This document shows, piece by piece, positions 9,703-18,717 of a stretch of DNA of 64,000 nt. Both the position numbers and the translations under genes were made by a program. Below the pieces are notes generated by a model that saw nothing but the letters and a program-made list of their open reading frames with translations, had not been told where the DNA came from and made no database searches. Source of the stretch: Phycicoccus sp. HDW14 (GTDB lineage: Bacteria > Actinomycetota > Actinomycetes > Actinomycetales > Dermatophilaceae); assembly GCF_011383005.1 (NCBI RefSeq), contig NZ_CP049935.1:3472001-3536000 (forward strand), read 5' to 3'. Position 1 is the stretch's first letter. Each line of letters starts with the position of its first letter.

Positions 9703-9763
9703 AAGGATTCACTCAGGGGCGCACCCGACGCCCGAGGGGGCGCAACGGTTCCGGGCCCCCACT

Positions 9764-10037
9764 GGGACGCCAGGAAGGCTTCCTGGTGGCGGATGCGGGT
9801 GGTCACCCCTGTTGGGGCGCCAGGACGGCTTCCCGGTGGCGGAAGTGGGGTGGTCACCCCTGGTGGGGCGTCAGGAGGGCTTCCTGGTGGCGGAAGTGGG
9901 GTGGTCACCCCTGCTGGGGCGCCAGGACGGCTTCCCGGTGGCGGATGCGGGGTGGTCGCCCCTGGTGGGGCGCCAGGACGGCTTCCCGGTGGCGGAAGTG
10001 GGGTGGTTACCCCTGCTGGGGCGTCAGGAGGGCTTCC
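9764..10037. repeat. 51-bp tandem repeat array, five units plus a partial
   Basis: Units begin at 9764 (50 bp), 9814, 9865, 9916 and 9967 (51 bp each), with a truncated unit from 10018. Each unit contains a GGGGTG-N2-CACCCC palindrome and a CAGGA-N3-CTTCC(C/T)GG inverted element; in unit 1 the latter is a perfect 8-bp palindrome. The units differ at a few positions. The array fills the space between the selD stop and the operator cluster. The 51-bp unit is a multiple of three, so frames stay open on both strands, but nothing indicates translation. Confidence 0.85.
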
Positions 10038-10046
10038 AGGAACCGC

Positions 10047-11060
10047 TCAGCGGGCCACGGCGCGGGGCGCCCGTCCCCGGAGGACGACGAGGGCGCCGTC
10101 GGCCCGCCGGGGCACGACCTCGCCGATGACCGGGGCGCCCGCGACCTCGCCGCCGAGCAGCAGCCCGCCGGAGGTCTGGGCGTCGGCGAGCACCAGGAGG
10201 GCGTCCTCACCGGCGTCGCCCGCGTCGAGGTCCGGGCGCACCCAGTCGAGGTTGCGGCGCGAGCCGCCGGGCACGTAGCCCTCGGCGAGCGAGCGGAGCG
10301 CCGCCTCCAGCACGGGGACGGCGTCGACGTCGAGGACGGCCGTCGTGCCGGAGGCGCGCATCATCGCCGTGAGGTGGCCGAGCAGGCCGAACCCGGTGAC
10401 GTCGGTGGCGGCCCGCAGCCCGGCGGCCAGGGCGGCCCGGGAGGCGTCGCGGTTGGGGCTCGTCATCACGTCGACCGCCTCGGGGAAGACCTCGCCGGTG
10501 GTCTTGTGACGGTTGTTGAGGATGCCGAGGCCGAGCGGCTTGGTGAGCGAGAGGGCGGCGCCGGGGACGGCGGAGTCGTTGCGCAGCAACCAGTCCGGGT
10601 CGGCGAGGCCGGTGACGGCGAGACCGTAGACCGGCTCCGGGCCGTCGATGCTGTGCCCACCGGCCAGCGGCACCCCGACCTCGGCGCAGGCCCGGGCGCC
10701 GCCGCGGAGGGCCTCGGCGAGGAGGTCCATCGGCAGGGTCGCCCGCGGCCAGGTGACGAGGTTGACGGCCAGGAGCGGCTCCCCGCCCATCGCCCAGACG
10801 TCGGACATCGCGTTCGTGGCGGCGATCCGGCCCCAGTCGTGCGGGTCGTCGACGACGGGGGTGAAGAAGTCGACCGTCGAGACCACCGCCCGGCCGCCGT
10901 CGAGGCGCACCACCGCCGCGTCGTCGCCGGTGTCGGCGCCGACGAGGAGGGCGTCGGACCCCGGGAGGTCGACGCCGGCGAGCAGGGCGCGCAGCTCGCC
11001 GGGAGGGATCTTGCAGGCGCACCCGCCTCCGGACGCGGTCTGGGTCAGGCGGGGGAGCAT
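10047..11060 (-). CDS. selD: Selenide, water dikinase (selenophosphate synthetase)
   Basis: This 337-aa enzyme makes selenophosphate, the selenium donor for Sec-tRNA synthesis, from selenide and ATP. The N-terminal GGGCACK motif supplies Cys14 and Lys17, matching E. coli Cys17 and Lys20, so this SelD uses cysteine and is not itself a selenoprotein. The AIR-synthase-type ATP fold follows, including DDAAV and GGHSIDG. ATG 11060 is preferred; an in-frame GTG at 11078 is possible. It lies on the opposite strand from selC-selA-selB, about 4.5 kb from selC. Confidence 0.95.
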   Translation of the reverse strand: MLPRLTQTASGGGCACKIPPGELRALLAGVDLPGSDALLVGADTGDDAAVVRLDGGRAVVSTVDFFTPVVDDPHDWGRIAATNAMSDVWAMGGEPLLAVNLVTWPRATLPMDLLAEALRGGARACAEVGVPLAGGHSIDGPEPVYGLAVTGLADPDWLLRNDSAVPGAALSLTKPLGLGILNNRHKTTGEVFPEAVDVMTSPNRDASRAALAAGLRAATDVTGFGLLGHLTAMMRASGTTAVLDVDAVPVLEAALRSLAEGYVPGGSRRNLDWVRPDLDAGDAGEDALLVLADAQTSGGLLLGGEVAGAPVIGEVVPRRADGALVVLRGRAPRAVAR

Positions 11061-12954: not shown

Positions 12955-13706
12955 ATGGTCCGTTCCGCCCGAGCATCGGCAGACACGCCCTGGAAGGGTG
13001 TCGGGGAAAGGACGTGGTGCTGCCGGACGGCAGCGTGCTGAGAGTCGACGGCGTCGACCAGCGGTTGACCGAGCCGTGGTTCGTCTCGGCCCGCTTCACG
13101 GTCGGCGTCCTCGCCGGGGCCACCTCGAACCGCGAGACGCGCGGCCTGATGGTCGCCCCGGTCGGCGTGACCGACCACAACGTGCGCGTCCTGCTCGACG
13201 GCGACTACGTCGGCGAGTACACGCGTCAGGGCGGAACGGTGCTCGTCGCGGCGCGGGCCGACCGCACGCAGTCGCTCGTCGCCTGGCAGGGGCGGTGGCA
13301 CGAGGCGTGGTCGTGGGTCAACGTCGAGGGGGCGAGCCAGGCGCAGTGCCTCGCGCTGCTCGACGGGCTGACCTTCAGCGACTCGCCCCGGGGGCTGCGG
13401 GTGGGCCTGGGCCGGGGGATGGCCTGGGAGCGCATCGACGTGCTGAAGAACGTCCCCGGGGTCGGCGAGCTGCGCTTCGAGCGTCCCGAGCTGCGCGTCG
13501 ACGACATCCCCCGCTGGGCCGGGGCCAGGGTGCGCGGTGGGGAAGCCTGGCGCCAGTCGCTGCCCGACGACGTCATGGGGGCCGGCCTCAGCCGCATCGT
13601 CCTCGTCGGGCCGCAGGCCTGGGTCACCGTCCTCAACACCGCGCAGGTCGCCGATGACGCCGGCCTCGAGCTCGTCTCGGCCATCGAGGCCGTGTCATGG
13701 GCGTGA
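12955..13706 (+). CDS. Uncharacterised protein, first gene of the redox/selenoprotein operon, frame broken once
   Basis: I do not recognise the family. About 250 aa when repaired; no signal peptide or transmembrane helix is obvious. ATG 12955 has the best ribosome site in the region (GAGGAGG, 6 nt spacing), but its frame stops at 13039. The long downstream frame is open from GTG 13014. One base added in the G4 run 13003-13006 joins WKGVG to GKDVVLPDGSVLRVDG and gives a single ORF. Without that repair the gene is 13014-13706 (230 aa). A MauD-like thioredoxin protein follows 25 bp later. Confidence 0.7.
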
Positions 13707-13731: not shown

Positions 13732-14211
13732 GTGAGCGCCACCACCGCGGCGCTGGTCCTCAGCTGGGTCGCCATCGTCGTGATGTTCCTCGGGATGACC
13801 GGGATGCTCCGGATGATCCGCGAGCTGCAGAAGGAGGTCATGCCCGACGCCCGGCAGTTCGCCGACCGGTCGGGGCTCGCCGTGCGCTTCGCCCCGACCC
13901 GCGCGGCGTTCGCGATGGTCCTGCTCCACGAGAAGGGCTGCTCGTCGTGCACCGCGCTCGAGCCCGACCTCGCCCGGTTCGTCCTCGAGCACCCCGAGGT
14001 CGAGTTCCACTCGCTCACCCCGTCGTCCGCGGCCCCGTACGCGGGGCTGCCCACCGTCGTCGACGCGCCGGCGTTCCGGGCCCTCCAGCCGGGCTACACA
14101 CCGGCCGTCGCGGTCATCGACCGCGACGGTGCCGTCGTCGACATCGGTCCCGCGGCGGACCTCGCGACCCTGTCCGACTTCGTGGCCCGGCACGGGTCAC
14201 CCACGACCTGA
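13732..14211 (+). CDS. Membrane-anchored thioredoxin-like protein (MauD-like)
   Basis: The 159-aa product has an N-terminal membrane anchor (residues about 5-28). A thioredoxin-fold domain follows with the redox motif GCSSC (Cys70, Cys73). The layout resembles MauD, the disulfide-handling accessory protein of methylamine dehydrogenase, and other envelope thiol oxidoreductases. It is predicted to face outside the cell. The next gene encodes an exported protein with six cysteines, a plausible substrate, and the operon ends in a membrane protein with an in-frame TGA. Confidence 0.7.
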   Translation: MSATTAALVLSWVAIVVMFLGMTGMLRMIRELQKEVMPDARQFADRSGLAVRFAPTRAAFAMVLLHEKGCSSCTALEPDLARFVLEHPEVEFHSLTPSSAAPYAGLPTVVDAPAFRALQPGYTPAVAVIDRDGAVVDIGPAADLATLSDFVARHGSPTT

Positions 14212-14220
14212 GGACCCGCC

Positions 14221-14754
14221 ATGACCGTCACCGACCCCGTCCCCACACGGCGGCTCGCCCTCGCGGACCTGCCGGACCTCGACCGCGAGCCCCCCGGCGC
14301 GTCGGCGAGCGCCGTCCGCGAGATCGTGGCCCGTCGGGTCTCGACCCGTCGCACCGTCTTCCAGCTCGTCTCGGGCGCTGCCGTCGCGCTCGGTGTCGCG
14401 GCCCTCGAGCTGCGCCCGACGCGCGCCTCTGCCGTGACGCTCAGCGTGTGGCCGGACTGCCACGGGTTCATCAACCCCTCGACCGTCTGCACCCCGCCGT
14501 CGTGGTACATCAGCGGGACCCTCCCGTGCAACGGCACCTGGCACCGGTGGGACTCCTACAACGACAGCTTCGTCAGCTACTCCTTCCAGTTCTACGACAC
14601 CAGCTGCGGCACCAAGAACGCGTGGAAGTGGTACGGCGCCACCGGTGCCGGCCACTCGACGCTCAAGCGCAAGTGCTCGGACGGCCACACGTCCTACGCG
14701 GATGTGGGCGGGACGCGGATCTACAACAGCTCGATCTGCCGGACGGCCCTGTGA
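14221..14754 (+). CDS. Exported cysteine-rich protein, probable Tat substrate
   Basis: This 177-aa protein has a long N-terminal leader with RRVSTRRTVFQLVSGAAV (near residues 40-57), an Arg-Arg plus hydrophobic core that resembles a Tat signal. The mature part, about 106 residues, has six cysteines and many Trp/Tyr. The long Tat-type leader, small Cys-rich body and MauD-like neighbour recall the methylamine dehydrogenase light chain, but no heavy chain is present, so this is an analogy only. Its stop overlaps the start of the next gene (GTGA). Confidence 0.6.
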   Translation: MTVTDPVPTRRLALADLPDLDREPPGASASAVREIVARRVSTRRTVFQLVSGAAVALGVAALELRPTRASAVTLSVWPDCHGFINPSTVCTPPSWYISGTLPCNGTWHRWDSYNDSFVSYSFQFYDTSCGTKNAWKWYGATGAGHSTLKRKCSDGHTSYADVGGTRIYNSSICRTAL

Positions 14755-15485
14755 GCGTTGTCGTCCCGGTCACACGCCGGCTGTTCGGGCCGCTGCCCAC
14801 GGCCGTCGCGATCGCCCTCCTCGTCGCGGCCGGGGCGGTCATCGTCCTGTCCGGCGCGTCCTCGACCCCGTGGTGGGCCCTCGCCGGGCTCGCGGGCGGG
14901 TACGCCATCTCGGGCTCGGTCTGAAGCTTCAACTCGGCAGACCTGCTGAGCTCGTCCGTGTGGCGGGGACACGCGATGTGGTGGTTCTCCCTCGGGGAGG
15001 TGGTCGGAGGCCTGGTCACGGGTGCGCTGCTGGCCCTCCTCGGGGCGGTCGTCGTCGGTGTGGTGCCCGCCGTTCCGGCCGTGACGATCTGGGCGGTGCT
15101 CGCGCTCGTGCTCGTGGCGCACGAGATCGGCCTCGTGCGGGTCCCGCTGCCGCAGAACGCCCGGCAGGTCCCTCCCGAGGTGGTCGACGACGGCGGACAG
15201 GTCGGCGCGGTGCGCTTTGGCTTCGAGATGGGCACCGGCCTGCGCACCTACATGACCAGCGCGCTGCCACACGTCGTCGCGCTCGCGGTGCTCCTCGTCG
15301 GCGGCTTCCCCGCGGGGGTTCTCGCCGGGCTCGGCTTCGGGGTGGGGCGCGCGCTCATGCCGCTGGGGCGGATGGCGATGCCCGAGGGAACGTGGGACGC
15401 CGCGCTCGACCGCCGCGACCGGGTCGTGCGGGCCGTGCTGTGGGTCGCCACCCTGTCCCTCCTCGCGGCGCTCGCCCGCCCCTGA
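14751..15485 (+). CDS. Candidate selenoprotein: polytopic membrane protein with in-frame TGA (Sec58)
   Basis: The GTG at 14751 overlaps the preceding stop. The frame runs through TGA at 14922-14924 and on to the stop at 15483-15485 without any indel, giving 244 aa with selenocysteine at position 58. About five hydrophobic segments are predicted; the Sec would sit at the end of the second (GGYAISGSV-U-SFNSADLL). Codons on both sides of the TGA have strong GC third-position bias, and membrane-protein character continues across it. A SECIS-like hairpin follows the TGA, and tRNA-Sec, selA and selB lie immediately downstream. If the TGA were a stop, the products would be a 57-aa fragment and a 175-aa fragment without a good ribosome site. 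The family is not one I recognise; redox neighbours suggest membrane thiol/selenol electron transfer. Confidence 0.75.
14922..14950 (+). promoter_or_regulatory. TGA-Sec codon with bacterial SECIS-like hairpin
   Basis: TGA (14922-14924) is followed by a 7-bp stem, CTCGGCA (14933-14939) with TGCTGAG (14944-14950), containing one G-T wobble. The loop is GACC. The loop begins 16 nt after the TGA and its first base is G. This fits published descriptions of bacterial SECIS elements: an apical loop about 16-37 nt downstream, with a G in its first two positions. SelB, encoded nearby, is the expected reader. Confidence 0.65.
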
Positions 15486-15537: not shown

Positions 15538-15633
15538 GGAGGTGTCAGGGCTCCTGGTGGTCCCCGCGGTCTTCAACACCGACGAGCCCGAGTCGCTCGG
15601 GCTGGCGGGTTCGATTCCCGTCCACCTCCGCCA
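15538..15633 (+). tRNA. selC: tRNA-Sec, anticodon TCA
   Basis: The 96-nt gene includes an encoded CCA (15631-15633). The acceptor arms are GGAGGTG (15538-15544) and CACCTCC (15623-15629); the eighth acceptor pair of bacterial tRNA-Sec appears here as a T-C mismatch. The anticodon loop CTTCAAC carries TCA at 15573-15575. The very long variable arm, AGCCCGAG-TCG-CTCGGGCT, is a perfect 8-bp stem, and the T arm is GCGGGTTCGATTCCCGT. Anticodon and variable arm together identify the tRNA that reads UGA as selenocysteine. It lies 52 bp after the candidate selenoprotein and 27 bp before selA. Confidence 0.96.
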
Positions 15634-15660: not shown

Positions 15661-16952
15661 GTGTCCGACACCGACGCCCGTGCCGCCCTGCCCCGCACCG
15701 ACGACCTCCTGGCCGATGCCGGGGTGCTCGCGGCCGGCTCCGGCCTCGGGCCGGGGGAGGTGCGCCGGGTGGTCCGCTCGGTGCTCGCCCGGGCCCGCGC
15801 CGGGGAGGTGCCGGTCGACGGTGTGCGCGCCGCGGTGCTCGCGGCCCTGGCCACCCCGCCGTCCTCGCTGGCGCCCGTCCTCAACGCCACCGGCGTCGTC
15901 GTACACACCAACCTCGGTCGCGCACCGCTCTCGACGGCCGCGGTGGAGGCCGTCGTGCGGGCCGCCGGGCACACCGATGTCGAGCTCGACCTCGCCACCG
16001 GCCGCCGCGGACGTCGGGGGCGGGCGCCGTCGCCGCCCTCCTCGCGGCCGTGCCGGAGGCCGAGGCGGCGCTGGTCGTCAACAACGCCGCCGCCGCGCTG
16101 CTCCTCGCGACCACGGCGCTCGCGGGCGGCCGGGAGGTGCTCGTCAGCCGGGGCGAGATGGTCGAGATCGGCGACGGCTTCCGGCTGCCGCCCCTCGTCG
16201 AGAGCGCCGGCGCGCGCATCCGCGAGGTCGGGATGACCAACCGGACGTCGCTGCGGGACTACGAGGACGCCCTCGGCCCGGGGACCGGCGCGGTGCTCAA
16301 GGTGCACCCGAGCAACTACCGGGTCACGGGGTTCACGAGCAGCGTGTCGGTGCGCGAGCTCGCCGGGCTGCAGGTACCGCTCGTCGTCGACGCCGGATCC
16401 GGTCTGCTGCACCCCGACCCGCTCCTCCCCGACGAGCTCGACGCCGCGACGGCGCTCGCCGACGGCGCCGACGTCGTCCTGTTCAGCGGCGACAAGCTGC
16501 TCGGCGGGCCGCAGGCCGGCATCCTCCTCGGGCGGGCCGAGGTGATCGAGCGGCTGCGGCGGCACCCGATGGCCCGGGCCCTGCGGGTCGACAAGCTGAC
16601 CCTCGCCGCCCTCGAGGCCACGCTGCGGGGGCCGGTCGCGCCGGTGCCCGCCAGCCTCCACCTGGACCCCTCCGAGCACGCGCGGCGCACCGGGGTGCTG
16701 CGCGACGAGGTCGGTGCGGGTGAGGTCGTGCCGTGCGTCGGGCGGGTCGGCGGTGGCGGCGGCGCCGGGGTCGAGCTGCCCGGGGTGGCGCTGGCCCTGC
16801 CCGAGGCGGTCGCCGCACGGCTGCGCACGGGCCGCCCACCGGTGCTCGCCCGGGTCGAGGGCGGACGCTGCCTCGTCGACCTCCGGTGCGTGCCCGAGGC
16901 CGACGACGAGGAGCTGGCCGCGGCCGTGCGGGCGGCCCTGGCCGGGGCCTGA
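15661..16952 (+). CDS. selA: L-seryl-tRNA(Sec) selenium transferase, frame broken once
   Basis: About 430 aa when repaired. SelA is the PLP enzyme that converts Ser-tRNA-Sec to Sec-tRNA-Sec using selenophosphate. The N-terminal domain contains [16 protein letters not shown]. The PLP lysine is in [13 protein letters not shown] (about residue 279). The frame shifts in the G5 run 16016-16020; one added base joins ATGRRGRRG to [13 protein letters not shown]. The gene sits in selC-selA-selB order with one base between it and selB. Confidence 0.93.
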
Positions 16953-16953
16953 C

Positions 16954-18717
16954 GTGCTCGTCGTCGCGACCGCAGGGCACGTCGACCACGGCAAGTCGGC
17001 GCTGGTCCGGGCGCTCACGGGCACCGAGCCCGACCGCCTCGCGGAGGAGCGTCGGCGCGGGCTGACCATCGAGCTCGGGCACGTCTGGACGACCCTGCCG
17101 TCCGGCCGGCGGCTGGCCGTCGTCGACGTCCCGGGGCACGCCGACTACGTCCGGACGATGCTCGCCGGCGTCGTGCCCTTGCGCACCGTCCTGCTCGTCG
17201 TCGCCGCGGACGAGGGCTGGTCGGCCCAGACCGCCGAGCACGTCGCGGCGCTCGACGCCCTGGGCATCCGGCAGGGGCTCGTCATCGTGACCAAGGTCGA
17301 CCTGGCGGGTCCGGGGCCGGTGGCGGACGACGTCCGGGAGCGGCTGGTGGGGACCTCGCTCGCGGGGCTGCCGGTGCTGCCCGTGTCGGCGCGCACCGGG
17401 GAGGGGATGGGGGCCCTCGTCGCCGCGCTCGACGGGCTCGGGGTCCCCGAGGAGCCCGACGACCGCACCCGGCTGTGGGTCGACCGGGTGTTCACTGTGC
17501 GCGGGGCCGGGACGGTGGTGACGGGCACGCTGGCGTCCGGGCGGCTCGCGGCCGGGGACGCCGTGCTCGTCGGCGGCCGGCCGGGGCGCGTGCGGCGGCT
17601 GGAGTCGCTCGGTTCGGTGGTGGAGGAGGCGGTCGCGCCGGCCCGCGTCGCCGTCAACCTGCGCGACCTCGACGCCGACGTGCTACGCCGGGGCGAGGCA
17701 CTGGTCCGTCCGGGTGACTGGTGGTCGACCCGCCTCGTCGACGTCGGCACCGACCGCGACCTCGACCCGCCGACCCACGCCGTGCTGCACGTCGGGTCCG
17801 GGGCGCCGCCGGTGCGGGTCCGCCCGCTCGGTCCGCGGCTGCTGCGGCTGGCCCTCGACGCCGACGTCCCGCTCTCGGTGGGCGACCGGGCCGTCCTGCG
17901 CGACCCCGGGCTGCGGCAGGTGGTCGCCGGCGTCACCGTCCTCGACCCCGACCCACCGGAGCTGCGGGGACGAGGGGCCGCCGCCCGCCGGGCCACCGCG
18001 CTGGCCGACGACCCGACGGGGCTCGCCGGGGCGGTGCGGCGCCGCGGGGTGCTGGCCGCCGACCACGCGCGGCGGCTCGGCCTGCCCGCGGCCGCCGTGG
18101 CTGCCGCGGCCGGCGAGGACGCCGCGGCCATCGACGGTGTCGAGGCGGTGGGTGCCCACCTCGTCGACCCCGCCCTGCTCGCCGACCTGGCCGCCACCCT
18201 GCGCGACCGGGCGACCGCGGCCCGTCGGGCGGACCCCACCGACGCCGGCCCACCCGCGGCCGCCGTCGCCCACGAGCACGGCGTCCCGCTCGCGGTGGTG
18301 CTCGAGGCCGCGGCGCGGGCGGGCCTGCACACCTCGGGCGGACGCGTCGCCCTCCCGGCCGCGCGCGACCTCGGGCCGCACGAGGAGGCGGTCGCCACCC
18401 TCGAGCGACGCCTGGCCGCCGACCCCTACGATGCCCCGACCCGTCCCGAGCTCGCCGGCCTCGGCCTCGACGACCGGGTCCTGGCCGCGGCCGAACGCGC
18501 CGGCCGGCTGGTGCGCCTCGCGCCCGACGTCGTCCTCCTGCCCGGCGCCCTCGACGAGGCCGGCGACCGGCTGGCCGCCCTCGACCCCCCGTGGTCCCTC
18601 GCCGAGGCCCGGGTCGCGCTCGGCACCTCGCGCCGGGTCGCACTGGCCGTCTGCACCGACCTCGACCGCCGCCGGGTCACCCGGCACCTCCCCGACGGCC
18701 GCCGCGAGCCGCGCTGA
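16954..18717 (+). CDS. selB: Selenocysteine-specific elongation factor SelB
   Basis: This 587-aa GTPase has GHVDHGKS (G1, residues 8-15), DVPGHADY (G3, 58-65) and TKVD (G4, 113-116). Beta-barrel domains II and III come next, then a C-terminal series of winged helices that bind the SECIS RNA. It delivers Sec-tRNA to ribosomes at UGA codons that carry a SECIS element. GTG 16954 follows the selA stop by one base. An intact SelB implies that at least one functional selenoprotein gene exists in this genome. Confidence 0.95.
   Translation: MLVVATAGHVDHGKSALVRALTGTEPDRLAEERRRGLTIELGHVWTTLPSGRRLAVVDVPGHADYVRTMLAGVVPLRTVLLVVAADEGWSAQTAEHVAALDALGIRQGLVIVTKVDLAGPGPVADDVRERLVGTSLAGLPVLPVSARTGEGMGALVAALDGLGVPEEPDDRTRLWVDRVFTVRGAGTVVTGTLASGRLAAGDAVLVGGRPGRVRRLESLGSVVEEAVAPARVAVNLRDLDADVLRRGEALVRPGDWWSTRLVDVGTDRDLDPPTHAVLHVGSGAPPVRVRPLGPRLLRLALDADVPLSVGDRAVLRDPGLRQVVAGVTVLDPDPPELRGRGAAARRATALADDPTGLAGAVRRRGVLAADHARRLGLPAAAVAAAAGEDAAAIDGVEAVGAHLVDPALLADLAATLRDRATAARRADPTDAGPPAAAVAHEHGVPLAVVLEAAARAGLHTSGGRVALPAARDLGPHEEAVATLERRLAADPYDAPTRPELAGLGLDDRVLAAAERAGRLVRLAPDVVLLPGALDEAGDRLAALDPPWSLAEARVALGTSRRVALAVCTDLDRRRVTRHLPDGRREPR

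Follow-up and report, generated by a model that had tools for sequence, protein, structure and literature searches.

MauD, MauE and MauF are thought to help form or repair the disulfides of the methylamine dehydrogenase (MADH) light chain and are needed for the enzyme; we know of no account of the chemistry of MauF itself. Two conserved membrane Cys residues are present in CcdA and DsbD, and SelB, which serves selenocysteine (Sec) insertion, needs a hairpin following the UGA. A 2026 review of selenoproteins tabulates 119 families, none of which is named MauF; its nearest entry is TsoB (NF045694), a rhodanese/DsbD fusion-like selenoprotein with a DsbD-like part, and YeeE/YedE (PF04143) is listed there as a Sec-containing thiosulfate/membrane transporter family (PMC13188914).

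The window analysed here is a stretch of 64,000 nucleotides from Phycicoccus sp. HDW14, in which a gene on the forward strand (14751-15485) encodes, when read with TGA as Sec, a MauF-like polytopic membrane protein of 244 residues whose putative Sec is residue 58. From its GTG start at 14751 to its TGA stop at 15483-15485, the frame is interrupted solely by the TGA at 14922-14924 (forward strand), as had been claimed in the first-pass annotation and as reading of the sequence confirmed. The GTG overlaps the stop codon of the preceding gene (14221-14754), which suggests translational coupling. The same frame is also open upstream, to ~13704, and the list of open reading frames contains many overlaps; an open frame alone is little proof in GC-rich DNA, and the case for the gene rests on its homologues, in which the same site holds TGA or Cys. 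Conservation of that site, together with purifying selection on both sides of it, indicates that the frame is more than a chance opening. From these comparisons of sequence, the mid-gene stop is very probably read as Sec, and the first-pass proposal of a new selenoprotein now has strong support in a single site occupied by TGA or Cys, in co-occurrence with tRNA-Sec, and in hairpins shared across the family. We consider it highly probable that the gene encodes a MauF-family selenoprotein, with UGA decoded as Sec58 by means of tRNA-Sec, SelB and a hairpin; we propose for it a redox role alongside a MauD-like partner.

An initial search of 98 genomes (that of the window strain and relatives) returned 10 genes in 9 genomes, the source genome included, with TGA at the aligned site in 10/10; five belong to subfamily A, the window type, with the motif SGS[TV]U, and five to subfamily B, with TWSPUGESMLSSI or nearly so. 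With a profile built from these ten genes, a sample of 396 genomes from the order yielded 26 genes in 24 genomes, partly overlapping the first set, each containing one TGA, which lies at the Sec site in 26/26; these include a second family copy in the window genome (G000:C1:2179568-2180236), again with TGA at the site. A scan of named genomes employed a subfamily B query and one pattern containing the Cys, so that its ratio of TGA to Cys is biased, and produced 35 loci with TGA at 28 and Cys at 7. The TGA loci are from Pedococcus, Phycicoccus, Knoellia, Janibacter, Piscicoccus, Kineococcus and several actinobacterial metagenome-assembled genomes (MAGs); all seven Cys loci are from MAGs. With the window protein itself as the query, the named-genome scan gave no loci, and alignment A1, which holds the window protein, offered no conserved stretch from which a scan pattern could be drawn. 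Across a phylum sample, the family is present in 66 of 396 genomes and 54 of 237 genera; the search identified 71 places, of which those short of the Sec site were dropped (6 genomes had only such places), leaving a TGA gene in 52 genomes and a Cys gene in 8, with the site read in all 60. Every site read in the named scan and the phylum sample is TGA or Cys, with no third letter, and among the homologues met in these searches, which were not aimed at truncated forms, none terminates at the TGA. One divergent member (L140, G607:C210:4345-4893) carries a TAG besides the TGA and is perhaps a decayed copy.

Neither the window protein nor Paracoccus MauF matched any family in Pfam or NCBIfam. Comparison of profiles was made with one MauF sequence, that of Paracoccus denitrificans (WP_011750949.1), the plasmid with its annotated mau genes having been located via a MADH light chain. 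Family profile A1 aligned with this MauF across 186 columns (hhalign 98.7%, E 3e-16), and a second alignment, A2, did so at E 1.7e-14. The Cys of the STWSPCG motif of MauF falls on the position of the Sec, and a PQxxxQVP stretch is common to both; the window protein differs in having Sec for Cys and in its actinobacterial host. The alignments point to the window protein as a divergent MauF-family protein. We agree with the earlier placement of the protein outside FdhA, GrdA/B, SelD, Prx, Trx and the other families listed at that time, and would now describe it as a MauF relative; its MauF kinship, the adjoining mauD-like gene and the paralogue elsewhere in the genome had not been recorded in the first-pass annotation.

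The genes preceding the selenoprotein gene form a run on the same strand. The first (13017-13706, called by a GC3-based picker) encodes protein X, of unassigned family, the region 13014-13706 having no match in Pfam or NCBIfam; genes similar in size and place lie near four other A-type loci. It is followed by a gene for a MauD-like, membrane-anchored thioredoxin-like protein with a CSSC motif (13732-14211, forward strand), for which alignment A5 matched Paracoccus MauD (96.6%, E 5.1e-10); neither Cys70 nor Cys73 varies across its 8 rows. The position of mauA is taken by a gene for a Tat-type, Cys-rich exported protein (14221-14754, forward strand), which is the probable partner of the selenoprotein; when aligned with its counterparts at 4 other A-type loci, three Cys and two Trp columns are invariant. 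Its identification as a homologue of MauA, the MADH light chain, was considered and is unsupported (31% and 8.7%, with mostly the Tat region aligned). The window also differs from the mau system in that neither mauE nor mauB was seen in it: of the MauD-like and MauE-like genes only the former is present, and the two MauE matches of the genome lie elsewhere, one adjoining the second family copy. That copy (L036, L076) stands beside MauE-like and MauD-like genes and a gene for a Tat-type Cys-rich protein with LGFP repeats. A PADLOC search gave no match.

The association with mauD-like genes extends across the family and is a further likeness to MauF. Profiles built in this analysis, applied to loci with enough flanking sequence, placed a MauD-like gene no more than 3.5 kb away at 60 of the 61 distinct loci of the non-Cys group (or at 53 of 54 when the loci that served as profile sources are set aside) and at 7 of 14 Cys loci. 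A MauE-like gene was scored at 44 of the 61 non-Cys loci and, as a separate reading frame, at 3 of 14 Cys loci, counts that are loose, the match falling in the same reading frame as the MauD-like one at 3 of 6 Cys loci. Here 'non-Cys' denotes all loci not known to have Cys, including L139, whose residue was not read; 6 loci with a short upstream flank and L068, which had no match, were left out, and L148 was dropped as a duplicate of L057 (the count having been 61 of 62 before). At a locus in another genome of the sample (G187, L077, 6530-10725), the TGA gene adjoins a MADH light chain gene (PF02975, E 2.9e-29), MauD (TIGR02661, 172 bits, just under the cut-off of 188.6) and MauE. An unassigned protein of 441 residues is also encoded there and may stand where the heavy chain would be.

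A resemblance to CcdA and DsbD (PF02683, PF13386) was also found, mainly in subfamily B. Pfam DsbD_2 scored above its cut-off for 3 of 6 members scanned, all three of subfamily B, and reached E 0.01 or better for 12 of 21 subfamily B members. In the predicted model of a subfamily B protein (pLDDT 91.4), one helix (3-23) ends and another (26-34) starts so that Sec27 lies in the first turn, placing the S-P-Cys/Sec motif at a helix break as in CcdA/DsbD; the model of the window protein has low confidence around the Sec. These similarities would fit a selenoprotein of the CcdA/DsbD superfamily engaged in general electron transfer and not specially linked with a MauD-like protein or an exported partner, and CcdA is indeed among the fold matches. 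We regard that description as possible, yet rather doubtful, since 94 members share one conserved Sec/Cys, against the two of CcdA and DsbD: 56 of the 94 have no other Cys, and the next-best column holds Cys in 9. The family thus does not show the pair of conserved membrane Cys of CcdA/DsbD. The near-constant presence of a MauD-like gene at non-Cys loci also speaks against it, as does the weakness of the fold match, in which CcdA (5vkv) stood at ranks 4 and 9 with TM about 0.35 and nothing reached E 0.001. The window protein itself has no Pfam match, unlike many subfamily B members. Fold kinship to CcdA, as judged from predicted models, amounts to a hint at most. The best hit of a sequence search against solved structures (E 0.057) was taken as chance.

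The remaining described families are more distant. TsoB differs in that it is listed with two Sec in a UxxxxU motif (PMC13188914), and in its rhodanese domain, which was not found in the window protein; NF045694 was not among the NCBIfam matches of six members (E <=10) or of the window protein (E <=1). From YeeE/YedE the window protein is set apart by having no Pfam match. A MauF-like selenoprotein is absent from the accessible parts of PMC12013277 and PMC5029168, and literature searches on selenoproteins together with CcdA, DsbD, TsoB, MADH, mau genes and actinobacteria, the scope of which excluded most subscription papers, gave none among the matches listed.

The first-pass annotation had proposed that Sec would be supported by homologues having Cys at residue 58 in hosts that lack sel genes and TGA in hosts that carry them, and both expectations are borne out in large part. 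Cys occupies the site at 7 of the 35 named-scan loci and in 8 genomes of the phylum sample, within which the distribution of tRNA-Sec was followed; tRNA-Sec was chosen as the marker in preference to SelB because EF-Tu-like genes also match the SelB search. At E 1e-10 or better, tRNA-Sec was detected in 203 of 396 phylum-sample genomes, comprising 46 of the 52 TGA genomes and 1 of the 8 Cys genomes (Fisher p 3e-5 for TGA versus Cys genomes, and p 2e-9 for TGA genomes versus all others, both ignoring shared descent). In the order sample, all 24 TGA genomes fall within the 130 of 396 having tRNA-Sec at >=62 bits. For 15 genomes of the named scan, judged at a line of 58 bits, tRNA-Sec was found in 7 of 8 with TGA, the exception being a MAG (L054), and in 3 of 7 with Cys; two further Cys genomes scored 54.2 and 51.6 bits, which were taken for other tRNAs. 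Within the flanks of the family loci themselves, ARAGORN located tRNA-Sec at 4 of 16 scanned. When the residue is mapped on a 94-member tree, the Cys form requires only 3 changes, at least 2 of them forced by well-supported branches, and genome counts are therefore not independent of descent.

The six TGA genomes without tRNA-Sec at E 1e-10 count against the Sec reading. A laxer search returned matches above the Rfam cut-off in two of them, G504 (56.5 bits), which is likely to be tRNA-Sec, and G599 (51 bits), which was not accepted as such; in the other four, nothing rose above that cut-off. The occurrence of Cys in other members would be compatible with insertion of another amino acid at the TGA, either Cys delivered by a dedicated tRNA or else Trp. 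That reading is scarcely credible given the partition of tRNA-Sec between TGA and Cys genomes, the position of selC, selA and selB directly downstream of the window gene, and the hairpin after the UGA, of the kind that SelB needs.

In the window, the minimum free energy fold places a hairpin at 14933-14950 (forward strand), with a 7 bp stem (14933-14939/14944-14950) and a loop at 14940-14943, which is likely to be the SECIS element and which the first-pass annotation did not mention. Taken alone, it is not significant (dinucleotide z -0.25, codon z -1.49); it sits two bases out of register with the family stem, and a second hairpin of the window is likewise out of the family register. Across the family, two hairpins recur at fixed spacing downstream of the TGA. 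In 33 diverse sequences picked from 80 TGA genes, 84.4% of the cells of the two-hairpin structure are paired (91.4% for hairpin 1 and 79.2% for hairpin 2), and the covariation score is 0.478, against <=0.129 when the structure is slid and a mean of 0.170 when sequences are shuffled; hairpin 1 by itself scores 0.445, its family stem (12-17/22-27) covarying in the 33 homologues. Codon-preserving shuffles of the 80 TGA genes gave a mean z of -2.62, with 60 genes below -1.5, and the same procedure on 15 Cys genes, including Paracoccus MauF, a mean z of -0.06, with 1 below -1.5. This set was gathered with four motif patterns, which miss some divergent TGA genes (L077 and L135-L141 among them), and was reduced from 85 TGA genes to 80 once near-copies were removed.

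Eight homologue pairs, picked at 75-99% protein identity and not including the window gene, display purifying selection both upstream and downstream of the TGA; median dS is 0.18 within the first 54 bases past the TGA, against 0.66 before it and 0.68 further on. Selection on both sides bears on whether the TGA is simply a true stop, with the upstream half a short leader and the downstream half a separate gene that starts near 14958 or 14976, as standard gene calling would have it when it yields 14958-15485 by itself. Such an arrangement is very improbable: homologues continue through the site with Cys, the conserved motif spans it, no third letter was read there, and hairpins and tRNA-Sec alike track TGA genes and not Cys genes.

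The genes for Sec synthesis and insertion lie mostly next to the selenoprotein gene. tRNA-Sec (selC) occupies 15538-15633 by ARAGORN, or 15538-15629 by Rfam RF01852 (65.4 bits), and is followed by selA (15661-16952, TIGR00474) and selB (16954-18717, TIGR00475, 247.7 bits, above the cut-off), all on the forward strand; selD (10047-11060, reverse strand, TIGR00476, 370 bits) is of the Cys form, with Cys in GGGCACKIPP where Sec can stand. The adjacency of tRNA-Sec, selA and selB, and the nearness of selD, thus hold as first annotated, with the qualification that selA is split between two reading frames, TIGR00474 positions 3-124 lying in one and 120-454 in another, with a junction at about 16008-16020; the claim of intact machinery is not borne out for selA, and Sec synthesis in the window strain is putative. 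No second selA copy was found in the genome. The split could mean that the family is one of selenoproteins while the pathway is dead in this strain, where the TGA would now stop translation. We think this unlikely. The junction abuts a run of G and the genome, assembled as one contig, is only 92.7% complete, both of which point to assembly indels as the likely source of the frameshift; selB, selC, selD and two TGA genes are moreover retained. No in-frame stop interrupts the best FdhA match of the genome (863 bits), so that FdhA is not an obvious client of SelB. The gene at 14751-15485 had been named the only candidate client in the window; at the level of the genome it is not the only likely one, a second TGA copy being present elsewhere.

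If tRNA-Sec and SelB, aided by the hairpin a few bases downstream, insert Sec58 at UGA 14922-14924, the protein would place one chalcogen, Cys in Paracoccus MauF and Sec here, at a predicted break in a conserved membrane helix. Thiol or selenenylsulfide exchange might then take place between Sec58 and the CxxC motif of the MauD-like protein, and a single Sec that has no partner Cys would favour such a mixed bond over an internal one. The MauD-like protein would in turn act on the exported Cys-rich partner, whose disulfides would be formed or repaired, by analogy with the mau system. We infer this redox role, in the maturation of an exported Cys-rich partner, because a MauD-like gene is found near almost all non-Cys loci.

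With a TGA form in 52 of 396 sampled phylum genomes, the family would add a selenoprotein of wide reach, and would mark MauF out as a redox protein that has a single key residue, Cys or Sec. None of the NCBIfam models matched the family members scanned, on which account the genes are probably annotated as cut fragments. They may also provide a client for SelB in those actinobacteria whose FdhA contains no Sec. More tentatively, and at somewhat less than even odds in our estimation, MauF-like proteins could be membrane redox relays based on a single chalcogen and, in Actinomycetota, a major user of Sec that has been overlooked; the two genes of the window genome may then explain its retained Sec machinery, through the maturation of exported Cys-rich proteins, perhaps including a new kind of quinoprotein. 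Elsewhere in the window, a tandem array with a 51-base unit (9762-10037; 5.4 copies, 88% matches) lies between a reductase gene and selD.
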